64,000 nucleotides of DNA, taken from the NCBI RefSeq assembly GCF_000760695.4, contig NZ_JHEG04000001.1, forward strand, positions 5,212,194-5,276,193. The letters are read 5' to 3'. This DNA is from Tolypothrix bouteillei VB521301. Its GTDB lineage: Bacteria > Cyanobacteriota > Cyanobacteriia > Cyanobacteriales > Nostocaceae. The position numbers and the translations under genes were made by a program. The first letter of the stretch is position 1; every line of letters begins with the position of its first letter. This document shows positions 34,315-56,880 of the stretch, in pieces. The notes under the pieces are model-generated. The model did no database searches and was not told the DNA's origin. It was given only the letters and a program-made list of their open reading frames with translations.

Positions 34315-37300
34315 ATGGTTAAACTACCAGGGTTTCAAGTGTTAGCCCAAATATATGAAAGTAGTAATTCTCTAGTTTACCGTGGTATCCGAGAAGCAGA
34401 TCGTCAACCTGCGATCTTAAAACTGCTGAAAGAAGACTATCCAACCCCTGCAGAACTGGTGCGCTACCGACAGGAATATGAAATCACTCGCTATTTGAAT
34501 TTAGAGGGAGTGATTAAGTCTTACGACTTACAAAAGTATCAAAACACCTTAATCATATTATTAGAAGATTTTGGTGGTGACTCTTTAGATAAACTATTAG
34601 GAAAAAGCTTACTAACTGTCGAGGAATTTCTCAAATTAAGTATAAGAATTAGTGAAATTTTGGAGAAAATTCATCAAAGCAATATTATTCACAAAGATAT
34701 TAATCCATCGAATATTGTTTTTAATTTTAAAACAGGAGAATTAAAAATAATAGATTTTGGCTTGTCTACTATCTTAACACGTGATAGCGCTGATATTCAA
34801 AATACCAATGCTTTAGAAGGAACCTTAGCTTATATTTCTCCCGAACAAACAGGTAGAATGAATCGTGCAATTGATTACCGAAGCGATTTTTATTCCTTAG
34901 GTGCTACCTTTTATGAAATGCTAACCAATCAATTGCCTTTTCCAACTGAGGATGCAATGGAATTGGTACATTGCCATATTGCCAAACAACCAGTACCAGT
35001 CCATGTTGTAAATCCACAAGTTCCTGTTGTAGTCTCAAACATTATTATGAGGCTCATGGCAAAAACAGCAGAAGAAAGATACCAAAGTGCTTATGGTATT
35101 CAAGCTGATTTAGAAGTTTGCCTCCATCAATTACAACATCAACAGAATATAATTGATTTTGATTTATGCAGTCAGGATATTTCCGATAAATTTCAAATCT
35201 CCCAAAAATTATATGGGAGAGAAGAACAAATCAAGACTTTATTAACCGCTTTTGAGCGAGTTAGCCTGGGGCAAAAAGAATTTATGCTAGTTTCCGGTTA
35301 CTCTGGGATTGGAAAATCAGCATTAGTACAAGAAATTTACAAACCAATAACTAAGTATAAAGGTTATTTTATTTCTGGAAAATTTGACCAACTTCATGGC
35401 AATATTCCTTATAGTTCTGTGGTTAATGCATTCACTCAATTAGTCAGAAAATTGCTTGCAGAAACTGAGACCCAATTACAACAGTGGCGAGATAAACTCC
35501 TTAGAAGTCTGGGGAGTAATGCACGGGTCATTGTTGATGTGATTCCGGAAATTGAACTCATTATTGGTGAACAACCTGCATTGCCAGAATTAGCTCCTAC
35601 AGAAGCTCAAAACCGCTTTCATTTGGTTTTTCAAAATTTTTTAGGAGTGTTTTGTCAAAAAGAACATCCCTTGGTAATTTTTTTAGATGATTTACAGTGG
35701 GCAGATTTAGCTACTTTAAAATTAATCCAGTCAATGATGACAGATAAAGAGAATAAATATCTGTTTTTAATTGGAGCGTATCGGGACAATGAAGTCAGTA
35801 CAACTCATCCTTTAATAAGGACTTTATCAGAAATACAAACCGCTGAAGTCTGTGTAAGTTCTGTCTTTTTGTCACCTTTAGATTTAAATCATATCAATCA
35901 ATTAATTGCTGAAACGCTCAACATGGCTTGTGAGAAGACAAAGCCCTTAGCAGAATTAGTACTGGAAAAAACTCAAGGTAATCCTTTCTTTCTAAATGAG
36001 TTTCTCAAATCTCTATACACAGAAGGGCTGTTATATTTTAATTTTTCAGTACGGAAGTGGCAATGGGATATTCAGCAAATTCGAGCGAGAGATATTACTG
36101 GTAATGTCGTGGAACTGATGGCTAACAAAATTCAAAAACTACCAGAAAACACACAAAAAATTTTAAAATTAGCTGCTTGTATTGGCAACTATTTCGATTT
36201 AAATACTTTGTCAATAGCAGATAAAAATTTAACAAAAGAAACGGGGCAACATCTACGATCGGCGATAGAAGATGGTTTAGTTATACCCCTGAATTATGAT
36301 TATAAATTTCTGCAAATAGACTGTAGCTTAGATAACTTAAGCATTGCTTGCAGATTTGTACACGATCGCGTCCAACAAGCTGCCTATTCTCTCATTTCAG
36401 ATAATGATAAGCCATACATTCATCTACAAATCGGGCAAGTGCTACTTAATAATACACCATTAAAACAGCAAGAAGAGAAAATTTTTGATATTGTGAATCA
36501 ATTGAATTTAGGTAGCAAGTTGTTAGATAATCAAGAACAACGAGATGAATTAGCAAAATTCAATTTAATAGCCGGTCAGAAAGCAAAAGCATCAGCTGCT
36601 TTTCAGGCTGCGTTTACTTATTTGACATATGGCTTAGAACTATTAGCACCAGATAGATGGCAAAAACAGTACAAAATGACATTAGATTTGTACGCAGAAG
36701 CCGCAGAAACTGCTTACTTAAGCGGTCATTTTGAGGAAATGGAAGAATTAAGTGCTACCGTGCTGCAATATGCTGAAGTTTTATTGGATAAAGTCAAAGC
36801 TTATGAAGTTAAAATCGCCGCTTACACAGCACAAGGGAAGCTAATAGAAGCGATCGATATTGGTATAACTATTCTCAACCTCCTAGGAATGCGCTTACCA
36901 AGAAAAGCTACTCAAGTTCATATTATGTTTTCTTTATTGGAAACAAAATTTGTTTTGCTGGGTAAACGAGTAGAGGATTTAATTGATTTGCCACCCATGA
37001 CGGCTTCTGACAAGAAAGCTGCTATTTCTATTTTTTGCAAACTTTTTGCTACTGCTTATATTGCAGCCTCAAATTTATTAATAATTTTTATTTTAAAAGC
37101 AATTATTTTATTAGTAAAATATGGCAATGTTGAAATATCCGCTTATATATATGCTTGTTACGGTACCATTCTATGTGGAGCTTTAGGAGACATTGATACA
37201 GGGTATCGTTTTGGTGAATTATCTTTAAAATTGTTGGATTTATATAATGCCCGTCAGGTTAAATCGAGTGTATTCTTATCTGTTTATAGTTTTATTAAAC

Positions 37301-39369
37301 CTTGGCGAGAACACGGTAAGCGTTCATTAGAACCTTTAAAGGAGGGCTATATTAGCGGGATAGAGAATGGAAATTTTGAATATGCTGCTTATTGCGCTAA
37401 AATGTACTCCAATTATTGCTGTTTTCTCGGTCAAGAATTAGCTGTCACTGAACGAGAAATTTACTACTATACTAATGCTATTAAAAAATACAAGCAAGAA
37501 CGGAGCGTTGATAATATCAATATTCAACGACAAATGGCTTTAAATCTACTAGGTCAGTCTGAAAATCCCTGCTATTTAATCGGTGAAAGTTACAATGAAT
37601 TAGAAAGTCTGGCTTTAGCTATTGAAGCAAGAGACTATAGCAAAGCCTTTGATGTCTTTAGCCATAAGTTAGTATTGAATTACTTGTTCGGAGAATACGA
37701 ACAAGCTATAAACAGTGCCATGATGGCAGAAAAATATTTAGAGGGAGGATTGGGAGCACTAGCTGTTCCTACAATCTATTTTTATGATTCTTTAGCTCGA
37801 TTGGCTGTTTATCCTTATAGGGATAAAAAACAAAAACATCTTTTGCATCAAAGGATCAAAGCCAATTATAAAAAATTGCAAAAATGGGCGAAATATGCGC
37901 CAATGAATATTTTACATAAGTTATCTTTACTAGAAGCAGAATGGCACAGAGTGCAAGGTCAAGACTGCAAGGCAATGAACTCTTACGAACAAGCTATTAC
38001 CTTAGCTAGAAAAAATGAATATCTTAATGAAGAAGCACTTTGTTATGAATTAGCAGCTAAGTTTTACCTTACACAAGGCAAAGAAAAAATCGCTCAAGTT
38101 TATATGCAGGATGCTCGTTACTGCTATTTATGCTGGGGTGCATTGGCAAAAGTTCAAGATTTAGATAACCACTATTTAGATTTATTGAAAAAACCGTTTT
38201 GGGACAGGCGATCGCAAAGCTATGAACTGAGAGTATCTACACCACGAGCCATTTCAGAAAGAAATCATTCCTCCAGCCTGGATTTGGCTACAATTATGAA
38301 AGCATCTCAAACTCTTTCTGAAGAAATTGTTTTGGAGAAATTATTGGCTAAGTTGATGCAGACTGTCATCAAAAATGCCGGAGCGCAAAAAGGATTGTTA
38401 ATTTTGGAAAATCAAGTTCATTGGCTAGTTCAAGTTGTAGAGAACTTAGATTGCACTCCAGTTGTCTTGCAGTCAATTGCACTAGAAAATTGCGGAATCA
38501 TTCCTCTATCTATTATTAATTATGTCAATCGTACTAAAGAAAATATAGTTTTACACGACGCAACTTGTGAAGGTCAATTTACTTCAGATCCTTATATAAA
38601 TAACTATAAACCGCAATCCGTTTTATGTGCTCCACTCATTCATCAAGGCAGACTGACGAGTATAGTTTATTTGGAAAATAATCTCACCCCTGGTGCTTTT
38701 ACTTCCGAACGATTGGAAATTGTTAAATTGCTCTGTTCCCAAGCCGCTATTTCTATCGAAAATGCCCAACTCTATGCAGAAAAAGAGAAATACGCATATA
38801 CCCTAGAACACAAAGTGGCAGAACGGACACGTGAATTGGAAAAAGCCAATCAAGAGTTGCAGCGCCTCGCTTTATTAGATGGTTTAACTCAAGTTGCTAA
38901 CCGCCGCCGCTTTAATGAATGCTTATCTCAAGAATGGAATCGCCTGTCAAGGGAAAAACAACCTTTGTCTTTGATTTTGTGCGATGTAGATTACTTCAAA
39001 CGTTATAACGATTTCTACGGACATCAAAAAGGCGATGAATGTTTGCAACAAGTGGCAAAAGCTATGACTTATGCTGTCAGGCGTCCCGCCGATCTCGTAG
39101 CGCGTTACGGTGGGGAAGAGTTTGCAGTCATTCTTCCCAACACCGATCTTGAGGGTGCTCTCAAAGTTGCTGAAGCGCTAAGGATAGAAATTCAAAATCT
39201 CAAAATACCTCACGCCCAGTCAGAAGTAAGCCCTTGCGTTAGTTTAAGCCTGGGAGTCACCTGCATGATTCCAGCACCGACATTTTCTCTAGAAGAATTG
39301 ATAGCTAAAGCTGATGAAGCCCTTTATGCTGCTAAACAGCGAGGAAGAAATTGTGCTTGTGCGAAATAG
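34315..39369 (+). CDS. Multidomain Ser/Thr kinase-AAA ATPase-GAF-GGDEF signalling protein
   Basis: A 1684-residue cytoplasmic protein. Residues 7-265: Hanks-type kinase with Lys36 (AILKLL), His126-Lys-Asp128 (HKD in place of HRD) and Asp147-Phe-Gly. Residues ~295-560: AAA/STAND-type ATPase with Walker [10 protein letters not shown] (~328-336) and Walker [13 protein letters not shown] (~451-462). Residues ~600-1320: long helical, TPR-like region. ~1320-1490: GAF domain. A coiled coil leads to a GGDEF domain (~1520-1684) with GGEEF near 1597 and an inhibitory site RPAD five residues before it. This architecture is common in cyanobacteria with a histidine kinase as output; here the output is a diguanylate cyclase. 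The kinase keeps its key residues. No neighbour is an obvious partner. Confidence 0.93.
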
Positions 39370-42623: not shown

Positions 42624-44627
42624 CTATTGCTGGTTGTGAGCTAACGGGAGCTTAATGATGAAAGTTGCTCCTTGTCCAATACCGGGACTCGAGACTTGTA
42701 TTGTTCCATTGTGTAACTCTATTAAATGACGGGCGATCGCTAACCCCAACCCCAAACCATCTCTGTAACGAGCGCCTTTGGCTTGTTGGTAGCGCTCGAA
42801 CACGTAAGGGAGAAAATCCTCACTAATACCGCAACCCGTATCGCTTATTGTAATATGAGCGAAACTATCAACCCGCTCCAATTGCATTTTTATTCTGCCT
42901 CCATTAGGAGTAAATTTAATAGCATTAGAAAGTAAATTGCCTAAAACTTGCTGTAAGCGCTTGGGATCGCCTGAAATAGTCTCAATGGAATTGTCAAGTA
43001 TTGATTCCAAACATAAAGTTTTATCGTAAGCGAGGGGGTAAGCAGTTTCCAGGGCGGCTTGAATGACATCCACCAAATTGACTTCACTCACTTGAAGTTT
43101 CAATTGCCCTTGAATAATACGCGTGATATCCTGCAAATCTTCGAGCAATTTTTCTTGAAACTTAGCACTCTGCTCGATAGATTCCAACCCACGCGCAAAC
43201 GCAGCTTCATCTAACTTCAGATTACGCAACAGATGAGTCCAACCCAAAATGCCATTTAAGGGAGTTCGTAAGTCGTGCGTTACCATTGCCACAAACTCAT
43301 CTTTTGCACGGTTAGCGGCTTCAGCCTGCTCGAGAAGTGTCGCTTGTTGGATAGCAATTCCTACCTGAGTTGCCAATTGCTTTAGTAAATCAATTTCAAA
43401 TTGATGCCACTGTCGGGGCGCTTCACAGTGATGGGCAATCAGCAACCCCCACAATTGCTCTTTTTGAAGCACGGGAACGACCAAGTTAGCCCTAACTTGA
43501 AACCGCGCTAGTAGCTCTACATGACACGGGTCAATTCCTGAGTTATAGATATCCGTTTTTGCAACCACCAGTCCCAGACGATAGGGTTCGACCCAGCTAT
43601 CTCGAAAACAGGGATCGAAAATGTTAGTTGATACAATTGAAGGCCAGTTGGAACTGACAGATTCCATAACTACAGTACCACTACCGTCAGGTTCCAAACG
43701 AAAAAGAAGCACGCGATCGGTTTGAAGAAACTGGCGCACTTCATCGACAGTTGTCTTGAAAATTTCTTCAAGCTTGAGAGATTGGCGAATGTGTTGGGCA
43801 ATCTTTGTGACGAGTTGTTCCCTTAACAACTGCTGTTTCAGCGCAACTTCTGCCCGTTTGTGTCTGGTAATATCAAGTGCTGTACCTAAAATCTGCTGCA
43901 CCGAACCTTGAGAATTCCTTTTAAATACAGTTTCTTGACTGCAAAACCATCGCCATTCCCCGTTGGCATGGCGCATTCGATACTCAAATTCTACAATCTT
44001 GCCATCTTCAACTAAGTCAAAATCTTGAAAGTGTTTGGAGACTCGAAGCAAATCCTCAGGGTGCATCAACTCCTCAAGCACTCTGGCTCCCATGGCTTGA
44101 AGTTGTTGGGGCGTGTAACCAAGAACTTCAGTCGTTTGACGATTGATATAAATATTGTTCTGTTCCACAATATCTTGAATATATAAAATACCAGGAGTTG
44201 TATTCGTAATCTCTTGAAGCAACTTCTGGCTTTCCCGTAACCGGGTATATTCCATAGCATCATTTAAGGCAAACAGTAAATCCTTCGCAGTCATTTGCTC
44301 CTTTACCAAATAATTCCACACACCCCTGTTCATCGCTTGAATAACAATCGATGCATTTCCCCGTCCAGCAAGCACGATCGCTGGTGGAACGTTTCCTTGT
44401 GTCTGTTGTTTGAGTTGTGCTAAAAATTCCAGCCCGTTCATGTCAGGCAACATATAGTTGACTAAGATGGTATCGGGATTGAACTGCTGACACAACATCA
44501 ATCCTCCTGTTCCTGATTCTTCTTCCAAAATCTTGTAGCCGCAATCACGGTCTTGTAGCAAATAACGACGATAAACCTCCCTATCTTCCGCACAATCATC
44601 AATAATCAAAACTGTTCTTTGTTCCAT
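42624..44627 (-). CDS. Receiver-PAS-GAF-histidine kinase, GAF of DXCF cyanobacteriochrome type
   Basis: A 667-residue soluble hybrid kinase. Residues 5-125: receiver domain with acidic pair Asp10-Asp11 and Lys109, but Asn57 in VNYMLPDMNG where the phosphoacceptor Asp belongs. ~135-260: PAS/PAC. ~280-430: GAF domain with FDPCF (Cys340) and DPCHVELL (Cys368-His369), then FQVRANLVVP and LWGLLIAHH. These are the DXCF and canonical bilin-binding cysteines of cyanobacteriochromes; their spacing of 28 equals that of TePixJ (Cys494/Cys522). ~438-660: HisKA with THDLRTPLN (His451) and HATPase (NLLSNAIKF, DTGCGI, GLGLGLAI). I infer a bilin-binding blue/green-type photosensor kinase with a non-phosphorylatable receiver. 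It is a single gene; its partner regulator is not nearby. Confidence 0.92.
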   Translation of the reverse strand: MEQRTVLIIDDCAEDREVYRRYLLQDRDCGYKILEEESGTGGLMLCQQFNPDTILVNYMLPDMNGLEFLAQLKQQTQGNVPPAIVLAGRGNASIVIQAMNRGVWNYLVKEQMTAKDLLFALNDAMEYTRLRESQKLLQEITNTTPGILYIQDIVEQNNIYINRQTTEVLGYTPQQLQAMGARVLEELMHPEDLLRVSKHFQDFDLVEDGKIVEFEYRMRHANGEWRWFCSQETVFKRNSQGSVQQILGTALDITRHKRAEVALKQQLLREQLVTKIAQHIRQSLKLEEIFKTTVDEVRQFLQTDRVLLFRLEPDGSGTVVMESVSSNWPSIVSTNIFDPCFRDSWVEPYRLGLVVAKTDIYNSGIDPCHVELLARFQVRANLVVPVLQKEQLWGLLIAHHCEAPRQWHQFEIDLLKQLATQVGIAIQQATLLEQAEAANRAKDEFVAMVTHDLRTPLNGILGWTHLLRNLKLDEAAFARGLESIEQSAKFQEKLLEDLQDITRIIQGQLKLQVSEVNLVDVIQAALETAYPLAYDKTLCLESILDNSIETISGDPKRLQQVLGNLLSNAIKFTPNGGRIKMQLERVDSFAHITISDTGCGISEDFLPYVFERYQQAKGARYRDGLGLGLAIARHLIELHNGTIQVSSPGIGQGATFIIKLPLAHNQQ

Positions 44628-44974: not shown

Positions 44975-45318
44975 TAATACACTGTAAAATTTAAGATTAA
45001 AGTTAGGATCGGCTAGTACAAGCTTATCTTAGCAGTTAAAAAAGGTTCTGCTATATACTGAAATAGGTTATAACAATAGTTATTCTTTATGAGAGTAACA
45101 GGGATCTTTCAAAAGCCGTATGTGGAGATGGAGAGAAAATGGCGACTAGATTAAAGAAAGCCCAGTATCTCTAGACTTGGTCGTTTATGCTCTTTTAAAT
45201 GAAACCTCACCTGAAGGTTATAGTTCAAAGCTTTCCAGTTTTTACACCGAATTATCCGCGCCGAGGTAGCCCCTAAATTCTATTTATGGGGGCTAGGCGC
45301 GGGCGACTTTAGTCGCAG

Positions 45319-45717
45319 TCAAGTTTCTTTTTGGTTTTGAATATACATTTTGATACTGTCTAAAGTCGCACCTCCTACAGTGGATACAAAGTACGAATTA
45401 GTCCATAACGAGGGCAGTCGGCTTTTTAATTCTGGAAATTCCAAACGCAAATATCTAGATGTTGCCCCTTTAAATCTCTTCACTACTCGGTGTACTCCAA
45501 ACTGAGGGTCAACATCTATCAATAAATGCACATGGTCGGGCATTATCTCCATTTCTAATATTTCAACTTTAATGTCAATAGCTATTTGAGCGAGTAATTC
45601 TTTAAGTCTGGATGCAACAGCATTAACCAGCACTTTCCGCCTGTACTTGGGGCAGAAAATCACATGATATTTGCACGAGTAAACAATATTATTGCTTGAT
45701 TTAAATTTTTCAGTCAT
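45319..45717 (-). CDS. tnpA: TnpA, IS200/IS605 Y1 transposase (copy 1)
   Basis: A 132-residue HUH/Y1 transposase. The metal-binding pair is His62/His64 (MPDHVHLLIDV) and the nucleophile is Tyr125 (SIKMYIQNQ). It cuts and joins single-stranded DNA at the hairpin ends and inserts 3' to a short target. Length and residues are complete, so it should be active. It shares an 83-bp divergent intergenic region with tnpB. The protein is identical to that of copy 2. Confidence 0.95.
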   Translation of the reverse strand: MTEKFKSSNNIVYSCKYHVIFCPKYRRKVLVNAVASRLKELLAQIAIDIKVEILEMEIMPDHVHLLIDVDPQFGVHRVVKRFKGATSRYLRLEFPELKSRLPSLWTNSYFVSTVGGATLDSIKMYIQNQKET

Positions 45718-45800
45718 TTTCCGAAATAGTAGTTTACTATATTGTATCTATATGATAGAGTAAAGATAACTAATAAACAACGCTCGGGAGGTGATTTAAT

Positions 45801-47294
45801 TTGGCAGTAAGAACATCTAGTTTCGTTACAGAAATACCATTGATAACGACATCTAAAGACTTGAGCGTTCTCGCAGCCAGATTAGAGGCAGGGCGACAGT
45901 TGTATAATGCTGTTTTATCTGAAGGTTTAGCCAGACTAGAATTAGTACGTAATTCTGAAATATATCAACAAGCTAAACTCATCCCAAAATCCAACAAAAA
46001 AGAACGTTCCACAGCGTTTCAAAAAGCTCGTGAAGCTTACAGGTTTAGCGATTACGATTTACAAGCTTTCGCTAATAAAACAGCCATTGCAAGTATTTGG
46101 ATTAAATCGCACCTTGATGCTAATACTATTCAGAAGATAGCTACCAGAGCATTTAAGGCTGTAGAGCGAATGATGTACGGGTTAGCTAAAAAGGTTCGGT
46201 TTAAGCAGAAAGGACAGTTTGCTTCATTAGAAGGTAAAACCAATAAACAGGGTATTCGTTGGACTGGTAACGCTGTTGAATGGTCTACATTGAAGTTAAA
46301 AGCCATCATTACTAACGACCCTGTAATATTGCATGGTTTATCATCAAAGATTAAATATGTTCGCTTAGTGCGTCGCATTCTTAATCAAAAAAATTATTGG
46401 TTTGCTCAATTAGTTTGTGAGGGACTACCTTATCAAAAGCCTAAAAATATTATTAGTGATGGTACTATTGGTATTGACTTAGGCGTTTCAACTGTTGCAA
46501 TTGTTGGGGACAAAAAAACTATCTGGACTTCTTTTGCAGACGAACTAGAATCAAAGCAAAAGAAGATTAGAAAGTTACAGCGCAAAATGGATAGGCAACG
46601 CCGCGCCAATAATCCTAATAATTTCAACAGTAACGGTACTGTCAAGAAAGGTTCAAAACGTTGGCATAAATCAAACAGATATAAAAAGAAGAATAACAAA
46701 AAACGTGAAACAGAACGTAAACAAGCAGCGCATCGTCAGTCTTTACATGGTAGGTTAGTCAACCAAACTTTAGCCATCGGTAAACATATCAAAATCGAGA
46801 AGGTATCCGTCAAGGCATGGCAGAAAAATTATGGTAAATCCATAGGGTTTAAATCCCCATCAAGCTTTCAATCAGAACTAGTACGCAAAGCTGAGAATGC
46901 TGGTGGAACAGTTCTAATGTTTTCGACAAGGTATACCGCACTTTCTCAAACTTGTTTGTGTGGTAACAAACAGAAAAAATCATTATCGCAACGTGTTCAT
47001 CATTGCTCAGTCTGTGGGTTAACGATGCAACGTGATATTTTATCTGCTTACCTGAGTCGTCACGTTGACCCAAAAACAGAAACTTTGTCAATCCAATCAG
47101 CCAGAGATAGCTGGCTAGGGATGGAGAAATCCCTACTGGACGGTTGGCAAGATGGGTCAAATCAACGTGCGAGAACTGCGACTAGTTCAAAGTCACCTAT
47201 TAGCAATAATGGGTCAGAGCGCGTGTTCAGTAACCTAATAGCTTGCGAGGAGTCGGAACCTTTGAGGGTAAACGAAACTCGCGTAGTGAGTTAG
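45801..47294 (+). CDS. tnpB: TnpB RNA-guided nuclease (copy 1)
   Basis: A 497-residue TnpB. The start is a TTG at 45801 with GGGAGGTGA 6 nt upstream. RuvC residues Asp226 (GTIGIDLGVST), Glu333 (KIEKVSVKAW) and Asp412 (MQRDILSAY) are all present, with a zinc ribbon Cys385/387/402/405 between the last two. TnpB proteins are guided by an RNA from the right end of the element and cut DNA next to the target motif, which keeps copies in the population. A basic region (~252-305, KKIRKLQRKMDRQRR) probably binds RNA. Its ~75-residue tail after Asp412 is longer than in minimal TnpBs. It is identical to copy 2. Confidence 0.93.
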   Translation: MAVRTSSFVTEIPLITTSKDLSVLAARLEAGRQLYNAVLSEGLARLELVRNSEIYQQAKLIPKSNKKERSTAFQKAREAYRFSDYDLQAFANKTAIASIWIKSHLDANTIQKIATRAFKAVERMMYGLAKKVRFKQKGQFASLEGKTNKQGIRWTGNAVEWSTLKLKAIITNDPVILHGLSSKIKYVRLVRRILNQKNYWFAQLVCEGLPYQKPKNIISDGTIGIDLGVSTVAIVGDKKTIWTSFADELESKQKKIRKLQRKMDRQRRANNPNNFNSNGTVKKGSKRWHKSNRYKKKNNKKRETERKQAAHRQSLHGRLVNQTLAIGKHIKIEKVSVKAWQKNYGKSIGFKSPSSFQSELVRKAENAGGTVLMFSTRYTALSQTCLCGNKQKKSLSQRVHHCSVCGLTMQRDILSAYLSRHVDPKTETLSIQSARDSWLGMEKSLLDGWQDGSNQRARTATSSKSPISNNGSERVFSNLIACEESEPLRVNETRVVS

Positions 47295-47295
47295 A

Positions 47296-47319
47296 ACCCC
47301 CTGCATTTATGCATGGGGT
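47296..47319 (+). ncRNA. Right-end hairpin, 3' end of predicted TnpB guide (omega) RNA scaffold
   Basis: The stem ACCCC-TGCAT / ATGCA-GGGGT with one mismatch lies just after the tnpB stop and 7 bp before the element's right edge. In the family the guide RNA scaffold overlaps the tnpB 3' end and continues into flanking DNA as guide. Copy 2 differs from copy 1 here by a single C-to-T (47299/56853), which keeps a G-U pair. Confidence 0.45.
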
Positions 47320-47326
47320 ATCTCAG

Positions 47327-54670: not shown

Positions 54671-54872
54671 AGGTTACTTGTTACAACATTCCATATTGCC
54701 AGTAATTTTGTACTATTTAATTCTTTAATTGCCCACTTAACAATGTGTGACTCTACAGGATGCAGAATATGAGAATAATTTTATGTTATTTCCGAACACA
54801 CCGAATTATCCGCGCCGAGGTAGCCCCTAAATTCTATTTATGGGGGCTAGGCGCGGGCGACTTTAGTCGCAG

Positions 54873-55271
54873 TCAAGTTTCTTTTTGGTTTTGAATATAC
54901 ATTTTGATACTGTCTAAAGTCGCACCTCCTACAGTGGATACAAAGTACGAATTAGTCCATAACGAGGGCAGTCGGCTTTTTAATTCTGGAAATTCCAAAC
55001 GCAAATATCTAGATGTTGCCCCTTTAAATCTCTTCACTACTCGGTGTACTCCAAACTGAGGGTCAACATCTATCAATAAATGCACATGGTCGGGCATTAT
55101 CTCCATTTCTAATATTTCAACTTTAATGTCAATAGCTATTTGAGCGAGTAATTCTTTAAGTCTGGATGCAACAGCATTAACCAGCACTTTCCGCCTGTAC
55201 TTGGGGCAGAAAATCACATGATATTTGCACGAGTAAACAATATTATTGCTTGATTTAAATTTTTCAGTCAT
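54873..55271 (-). CDS. tnpA: TnpA, IS200/IS605 Y1 transposase (copy 2)
   Basis: The 132-residue protein is identical to TnpA of copy 1 (His62/His64, Tyr125). With an intact frame and ends, this copy is a candidate for the mobile source or recent product. Its promoter region is shared with the divergent tnpB. Confidence 0.95.
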   Translation of the reverse strand: MTEKFKSSNNIVYSCKYHVIFCPKYRRKVLVNAVASRLKELLAQIAIDIKVEILEMEIMPDHVHLLIDVDPQFGVHRVVKRFKGATSRYLRLEFPELKSRLPSLWTNSYFVSTVGGATLDSIKMYIQNQKET

Positions 55272-55354
55272 TTTCCGAAATAGTAGTTTACTATATTGTA
55301 TCTATATGATAGAGTAAAGATAACTAATAAACAACGCTCGGGAGGTGATTTAAT

Positions 55355-56848
55355 TTGGCAGTAAGAACATCTAGTTTCGTTACAGAAATACCATTGATAA
55401 CGACATCTAAAGACTTGAGCGTTCTCGCAGCCAGATTAGAGGCAGGGCGACAGTTGTATAATGCTGTTTTATCTGAAGGTTTAGCCAGACTAGAATTAGT
55501 ACGTAATTCTGAAATATATCAACAAGCTAAACTCATCCCAAAATCCAACAAAAAAGAACGTTCCACAGCGTTTCAAAAAGCTCGTGAAGCTTACAGGTTT
55601 AGCGATTACGATTTACAAGCTTTCGCTAATAAAACAGCCATTGCAAGTATTTGGATTAAATCGCACCTTGATGCTAATACTATTCAGAAGATAGCTACCA
55701 GAGCATTTAAGGCTGTAGAGCGAATGATGTACGGGTTAGCTAAAAAGGTTCGGTTTAAGCAGAAAGGACAGTTTGCTTCATTAGAAGGTAAAACCAATAA
55801 ACAGGGTATTCGTTGGACTGGTAACGCTGTTGAATGGTCTACATTGAAGTTAAAAGCCATCATTACTAACGACCCTGTAATATTGCATGGTTTATCATCA
55901 AAGATTAAATATGTTCGCTTAGTGCGTCGCATTCTTAATCAAAAAAATTATTGGTTTGCTCAATTAGTTTGTGAGGGACTACCTTATCAAAAGCCTAAAA
56001 ATATTATTAGTGATGGTACTATTGGTATTGACTTAGGCGTTTCAACTGTTGCAATTGTTGGGGACAAAAAAACTATCTGGACTTCTTTTGCAGACGAACT
56101 AGAATCAAAGCAAAAGAAGATTAGAAAGTTACAGCGCAAAATGGATAGGCAACGCCGCGCCAATAATCCTAATAATTTCAACAGTAACGGTACTGTCAAG
56201 AAAGGTTCAAAACGTTGGCATAAATCAAACAGATATAAAAAGAAGAATAACAAAAAACGTGAAACAGAACGTAAACAAGCAGCGCATCGTCAGTCTTTAC
56301 ATGGTAGGTTAGTCAACCAAACTTTAGCCATCGGTAAACATATCAAAATCGAGAAGGTATCCGTCAAGGCATGGCAGAAAAATTATGGTAAATCCATAGG
56401 GTTTAAATCCCCATCAAGCTTTCAATCAGAACTAGTACGCAAAGCTGAGAATGCTGGTGGAACAGTTCTAATGTTTTCGACAAGGTATACCGCACTTTCT
56501 CAAACTTGTTTGTGTGGTAACAAACAGAAAAAATCATTATCGCAACGTGTTCATCATTGCTCAGTCTGTGGGTTAACGATGCAACGTGATATTTTATCTG
56601 CTTACCTGAGTCGTCACGTTGACCCAAAAACAGAAACTTTGTCAATCCAATCAGCCAGAGATAGCTGGCTAGGGATGGAGAAATCCCTACTGGACGGTTG
56701 GCAAGATGGGTCAAATCAACGTGCGAGAACTGCGACTAGTTCAAAGTCACCTATTAGCAATAATGGGTCAGAGCGCGTGTTCAGTAACCTAATAGCTTGC
56801 GAGGAGTCGGAACCTTTGAGGGTAAACGAAACTCGCGTAGTGAGTTAG
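55355..56848 (+). CDS. tnpB: TnpB RNA-guided nuclease (copy 2)
   Basis: The 497-residue protein is identical to TnpB of copy 1, with the RuvC triad Asp226/Glu333/Asp412 and the four-Cys zinc ribbon. TTG start with GGGAGGTGA before it. The guide RNA from this copy would carry the flanking sequence ACCTGCATTAAATAC as guide, which is part of the nnr-derived repeat and close to, but not identical with, the intact nnr 3' end. Confidence 0.93.
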   Translation: MAVRTSSFVTEIPLITTSKDLSVLAARLEAGRQLYNAVLSEGLARLELVRNSEIYQQAKLIPKSNKKERSTAFQKAREAYRFSDYDLQAFANKTAIASIWIKSHLDANTIQKIATRAFKAVERMMYGLAKKVRFKQKGQFASLEGKTNKQGIRWTGNAVEWSTLKLKAIITNDPVILHGLSSKIKYVRLVRRILNQKNYWFAQLVCEGLPYQKPKNIISDGTIGIDLGVSTVAIVGDKKTIWTSFADELESKQKKIRKLQRKMDRQRRANNPNNFNSNGTVKKGSKRWHKSNRYKKKNNKKRETERKQAAHRQSLHGRLVNQTLAIGKHIKIEKVSVKAWQKNYGKSIGFKSPSSFQSELVRKAENAGGTVLMFSTRYTALSQTCLCGNKQKKSLSQRVHHCSVCGLTMQRDILSAYLSRHVDPKTETLSIQSARDSWLGMEKSLLDGWQDGSNQRARTATSSKSPISNNGSERVFSNLIACEESEPLRVNETRVVS

Positions 56849-56880
56849 AACCTCCTGCATTTATGCATGGGGTATCTCAG

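Follow-up and report, generated by a model that had tools for sequence, protein, structure and literature searches.

A PPHK-like histidine kinase of Tolypothrix bouteillei with a predicted dual-cysteine light sensor and a pseudo-receiver

The kinase gene, its surroundings and its relatives

The window analysed here is a stretch of 64,000 nt from the genome of Tolypothrix bouteillei VB521301. On its minus strand, a single open reading frame with an ATG start occupies exactly positions 42624-44627 and encodes a protein of 667 amino acids; frame 1 of the plus strand across the same interval contains many stops. Pfam matches divide the protein into five domains in the order REC-PAS-GAF-HisKA-HATPase, and the coordinates of its features given below all refer to the minus strand. 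The N-terminal receiver (residues 6-111, positions 44295-44612) scores 59.6 bits against Response_reg (cut-off 30.2) and 125.5 bits against the receiver of the histidine kinase PPHK. It is followed by a PAS_3 domain (residues 159-250, 43878-44153), which on its own retrieved four generic PAS matches from the solved structures, and by a GAF domain (residues 286-426, 43350-43772) that Pfam, matches to the sequences of solved structures and a phylogenetic tree assign to the cyanobacteriochrome type. The HisKA domain (residues 441-506, 43110-43307) contains His451 (43275-43277), the predicted site of phosphorylation given its H-box motif VTHDLRTPLN and its near-invariance in our alignment. With the N- and G-box motifs NLLSNAIKFT, DTGCGI and GLGLGLAIA in the HATPase_c domain (residues 553-663, 42639-42971), all of the kinase boxes are present. 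No PHY domain beside the GAF was found among the nine Pfam families matched by the protein. Many NCBIfam kinase models were also matched, and none of the 25 matches listed reached its cut-off.

An AlphaFold2 model of the protein gave a mean pLDDT of 82.8 and a pTM of 0.47, and its six best Foldseek matches were six PPHK chains. Over the receiver and GAF together, the rmsd between the model and PPHK is near 27 Å, and with this value and that pTM the arrangement of the domains is not established.

Downstream, genes for an S41 peptidase and ispG/gcpE converge on the kinase gene, and they occupy the same place in a second genome (G018) that encodes an 87% relative. Upstream lies an IS200/IS605-type element. 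At this position, G018 (locus L075, 10382-12144) carries, upstream of the orthologous kinase, genes for a REC-only regulator and for a Crp-like one whose N-terminus resembles a PAS domain, as judged by eye from their domains. The element (2083 bp, with a Y1 transposase and a TnpB-like gene) occurs in the window at 45244-47326 and 54798-56880, one of these copies being the one just upstream of the kinase gene; as the two are one mismatch apart, we take them to have moved recently. It is possible that the Crp-like and REC-only pair of G018 constitutes an output unit that is missing from the window. A partner regulator next door was considered and rejected: the insertion element stands in its place, the best matches to the pair in the organism's own genome (52% and 61% identical) are located elsewhere, and no partner regulator is evident in the neighbourhood of the kinase gene. 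Two genes away, positions 34315-39369 of the plus strand encode a protein of 1684 aa that combines protein kinase, AAA, GAF and GGDEF domains.

At an E-value threshold of 1e-150, matches were obtained in 4 of 145 genomes of the family, the organism's own included; besides the 87% relative these comprise two at 48%, which keep the receiver Asp and have a C-terminal receiver. At 1e-100, 16 of 388 genomes of the order matched, again with its own counted, and a scan of named genomes gave three loci. A source name accompanies four of the seven close relatives (P0002, P0003, P0005 and P0006), in every case Scytonema, and we refer to proteins P0001-P0007 and P0074 as the Scytonema-type group. No earlier study of the T. 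bouteillei protein was recognised in the openly licensed papers searched.

Cysteines, chromophore pocket and phylogeny of the GAF domain

The initial annotation proposed a DXCF-type cyanobacteriochrome kinase from two cysteines spaced as in TePixJ, and the sequence features that it cited are borne out. Cys340 (43608-43610) lies in FDPCF (residues 337-341) and Cys368-His369 (43521-43526), the predicted canonical site of bilin attachment, in DPCHVELL (residues 366-373); together with FQVRANLVVP (residues 376-385) and LWGLLIAHH (residues 392-400), each of these segments occurs once in the protein. In phmmer alignments with 3vv4 and 4fof, Cys340 and Cys368 fall without a gap on Cys494 and Cys522 of TePixJ, both named in PMC6955287. 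The spacing of 28 residues is therefore that of TePixJ, and the DXCF motif (Asp338-Pro-Cys340-Phe341) stands at the TePixJ position. Among solved structures, the GAF region scored 195 bits against 6oap (PPHK), 147 bits against 6mgh (miRFP670nano), 141 bits against TePixJ 3vv4 and 138 bits against 8k9o (RcaE by title). Asp338, Cys340, Cys368 and His369 are kept in all eight proteins of the Scytonema-type group, and this conservation of both cysteines, with the scores against PPHK and TePixJ, places the resemblance beyond chance; in the other DXCF rows the presence of the cysteines was the sorting criterion, so that their 100% conservation is no test.

Residues 338, 340, 345, 368, 369 and 381 are identical to Asp492, Cys494, Trp499, Cys522, His523 and Asn535 of TePixJ, respectively, and TePixJ His498, Arg507 and Gln526 correspond here to Ser344, Leu353 and Leu372. 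Trp345 (43593-43595) is conserved as Trp in 8/8 Scytonema-type proteins, and this position is Tyr in 35 of the 36 other rows that, in the GAF alignment, share the pair Leu353 and Lys357 (43557-43571). This pair is the tag of what we call the GLxxxK subgroup of DXCF GAFs, whose members have DPCF, DPCL or DPCI and occur in genomes of several families; no description of the subgroup was found in the openly licensed literature searched. Three readings of these positions were abandoned. Leu353 was considered as a lost propionate clamp, but PMC6955287 assigns the hold on the B-ring propionate of TePixJ to His498 with Trp499; Arg507 makes contact only through crystal packing, from an adjacent molecule. 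A strict swap at positions 353 and 357 was dropped, as the combinations R/K, L/T and L/R are also found. An AM1_1186g2-type red/blue switch was set aside, the second Cys of that protein lying in helix alpha-3 and not in a DXCF motif according to PMC6628166.

We also rejected an apparent tie between the subgroup and an upstream receiver. In a set of 221 proteins, a REC domain precedes 36/36 GLxxxK-type DXCF GAF rows versus 13/318 other DXCF rows; this comparison is biased, because the proteins came from a query containing REC. When the GAF alone was used to search 386 genomes, 30 loci were returned, nine of them with a GLxxxK DXCF GAF, and a REC was present in three of these nine within flanks of ~1.5 kb; one lying farther away would have escaped this search.

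A tree was built from 98 GAF rows: seven of the Scytonema type (P0001 and P0003 added by hand, identical locus rows having displaced them; P0007 excluded because part of its GAF is missing), 26 other GLxxxK-type DXCF rows, 28 other DXCF rows, 14 with the canonical Cys and no DXCF Cys, eight XRG, eight non-bilin and seven references from solved structures. Random sampling reduced the larger groups from 35, 112, 65, 16 and 16 rows. A branch with support of 100/100 separates the non-bilin rows from the remaining 90. Within them the Scytonema-type group (100/99) belongs to a 34-row branch that also takes in the remaining GLxxxK rows and a single near relative; the branch support of 93/83 is not firm. 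TePixJ clusters with two PixJ-like GAFs (100/94), and PPHK falls in a four-row set with 6mgh (100/94), a structure of miRFP670nano, which we take to be derived from NpR3784; the miRFP670nano GAF shares the broad cyanobacteriochrome branch of our protein and has DRYF, with no Cys in the DXCF place. Several rows, including TePixJ and 8k9o, have long end branches. Constraining the Scytonema-type group to join the eight non-bilin GAFs was rejected (p-AU 0.0055). The domain thus lies inside the cyanobacteriochromes; a place among non-bilin GAFs, which the initial annotation had named as refuting its proposal, is not what the tree gives. A joint clade with TePixJ was not rejected for either the subgroup (p-AU 0.058) or the group (0.067), and both stand apart from TePixJ in the best tree.

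Given the replacements at the positions of His498, Arg507 and Gln526 and the separate lineage in the best tree, the photocycle need not match that of TePixJ. In DXCF photocycles as described in PMC11284453 and PMC6955287, a Cys adduct present in the dark is broken by blue light to give a longer-wave photoproduct. A kinase with the same two cysteines and another colour pair, in which phycocyanobilin is kept or the photoproduct is teal, orange or some other colour instead of green, is a possibility that we take seriously without favouring it. DXCF photoproducts are reported to span teal to orange (PMC6628166), the GLxxxK subgroup is unlike TePixJ at residues 344, 353, 357 and 372, and no characterised member of the subgroup was found; against this, typical DXCF GAFs are said in PMC11284453 to make phycoviolobilin and to be blue/green, and Trp345, His369 and Asn381 are the same as in TePixJ.

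A receiver domain without its phospho-acceptor

The receiver differs from that of PPHK at two residues for phosphotransfer: PPHK has Asp at the acceptor position and the conserved Thr, and alignment with PPHK and relatives places Asn57 (44457-44459) and Ala87 (44367-44369) there in our protein. Within the Scytonema-type group the acceptor position is Asn in 7/8 proteins, Glu in 1/8 and Asp in none, whereas it is Asp in all 38 other N-terminal RECs among the matches listed. These counts cover RECs ending before the first canonical-Cys GAF in the 120 proteins listed of 2738 protein matches, with rows gapped at the position and locus rows left aside; the locus rows agree. Of the same 38 RECs, again among the matches listed, 32 carry the conserved Thr, as does P0074, and both residues are missing in seven of the eight Scytonema-type proteins, including the one described here. 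P0074, in which the acceptor is Glu and the Thr is retained, begins within the receiver and lacks most of the PAS domain. According to PMC12632262, replacement of the acceptor by Glu and of the Thr by Ala is common in pseudo-receivers.

The domain therefore combines a clear Response_reg match with the lack of phosphotransfer residues that defines a pseudo-receiver. It does not correspond to the phosphorelay receiver of a hybrid kinase, being the only receiver of the protein, N-terminal and without the Asp, nor, with Asn57, to the phosphorylatable receiver of PPHK-type kinases. Judged from its residues, phosphorylation at the usual site of this receiver should not be possible, the acceptor having been lost. 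That another residue is phosphorylated and the light-or-phosphate gate still works is very improbable: Asp10-Asp11 and Lys109 are retained in this protein, but acceptor and Thr have both gone from 7/8 of the group and the one protein that keeps the Thr has Glu at the acceptor position.

Constraint on the domain was estimated from a single pair, the present gene and the 87% relative from G018, for which a simple counting method gave dN/dS values of 0.23 for REC, 0.15 for PAS, 0.07 for GAF, 0.05 for HisKA and 0.17 for HATPase. A value well below 1 that is nevertheless the highest of the five points to purifying selection that retains the receiver, though less strictly than the other domains. Its being the least constrained domain would also fit decay, and a decaying relic without any function is the alternative to consider here; we regard it as somewhat unlikely. 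The loss of acceptor and Thr and the erosion of the acid pair as well in P0004, P0005 and P0007 speak for a relic, but the dN/dS remains far under 1, and the receiver is full length in P0001-P0007 and is modelled with confidence by AlphaFold2. Most likely it has been retained as a structural or partner-binding module, or it may bind another ligand.

A probable light-regulated kinase and its known counterparts

The closest solved relative is PPHK of Leptolyngbya sp. JSC-1 (6OAP, 6OAQ and 6OB8), which matches in the receiver (125 bits) and the GAF (192 bits), both placed before a histidine kinase. PPHK is described as joining light and receiver phosphorylation by a light-or-phosphate logic (PMC8584932). 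It differs in retaining the receiver Asp and Thr, in having a GAF without the second Cys, and in its receiver adjoining the GAF, where our protein has a PAS in between. TePixJ (blue/green; 3VV4, 4FOF and 4GLQ) shares DPCF and Cys-His 28 residues apart and the equivalents of Trp345 and Asn381, but is listed as a chemotaxis receptor and not a kinase, differs at Ser344, Leu353, Lys357 and Leu372, and occupies a separate branch in the best tree, though not significantly. LvrB, a Rec-controlled histidine kinase, likewise places an N-terminal receiver before a HisKA-type kinase; according to PMC13269768 it is switched on by receiver phosphorylation, whereas our protein has no acceptor and carries PAS and GAF domains between receiver and kinase. 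CikA and ShkA are presented in PMC12632262 as histidine kinases with a receiver-like domain that lacks phosphotransfer residues, as in our protein; they differ in that binding of quinone or cyclic di-GMP is not known here and in that our pseudo-receiver is N-terminal.

PcyA and heme oxygenase are encoded in the same genome. PcyA (G000:C2:54340-55002, above the NCBIfam cut-off) is its only match to the bilin reductase family, and there are two heme oxygenases; the pcyA gene lies on the 455-kb second contig and not on the 9.5-Mb contig. Related GAF rows of this genome, taken from 30 of 40 matches, number 31: both cysteines are present in 12, the canonical Cys alone in another 12, and seven have no canonical Cys. 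Dual-cysteine GAFs are thus not unusual for this organism, and the one described here is the only GLxxxK type among the 31. Four loci of this genome (L089, L100, L104 and L105) encode proteins with GAFs in tandem, where an adjoining GAF has lost the second or the canonical Cys, with EPCF or PEH, for example, instead of DPCF or PCH. GAFs without the canonical Cys (7/31) therefore do exist here, but that the present domain is a relic no longer binding bilin is hardly credible, with both cysteines, Asp338 and His369 in 8/8 proteins, a GAF dN/dS of 0.07, and its placement with bilin-type GAFs by tree and AU test.

We consider it likely that the protein is a light-regulated, PPHK-like histidine kinase that has a dual-cysteine DXCF GAF and a pseudo-receiver not phosphorylatable at the usual site. 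The light-sensing kinase of the initial annotation is well supported as a prediction by both cysteines, the motif Asp, His369, Asn381 and the tree; it was incomplete in missing the kinship with PPHK and the degenerate receiver. The gene product is probably a light-switched kinase in which two cysteines hold the pigment. It resembles a dual-sensor kinase of which only the light input, perhaps with PAS input as well, is left.

In the mechanism that we propose, Cys368 would carry phycocyanobilin, probably converted to phycoviolobilin by isomerisation, and in the dark Cys340 would add to C10 to give a blue-absorbing state. Under blue light the 15,16 double bond would isomerise and the adduct with Cys340 would come apart, yielding a longer-wave state, most likely green. 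The change would run along the helix joining GAF and HisKA and set the autophosphorylation of His451, from which phosphate would pass to a separate response regulator whose gene lies elsewhere; the PAS domain may serve as a second input. By analogy with CikA and ShkA, the light-or-phosphorylation gate might even have been rewired in the Scytonema-type lineage, the pseudo-receiver sensing quinone or redox state, a second messenger or a partner and joining metabolic with dual-cysteine blue-light input, an idea we regard as speculative and unlikely.

DXCF kinases are already known in kind, and light sensing alone would make this protein one more member. Of more interest is that it is a PPHK-like kinase with a disabled phosphorylation input. 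How bacterial pseudo-receivers switch has been called a mystery (PMC12632262). A natural comparison is offered by PPHK-like kinases with the receiver Asp and the small group that has lost it, with receiver fold, GAF and kinase kept. It would reveal what a light-sensing kinase gains from an input by phosphorylation, and what role a pseudo-receiver plays in place of this.
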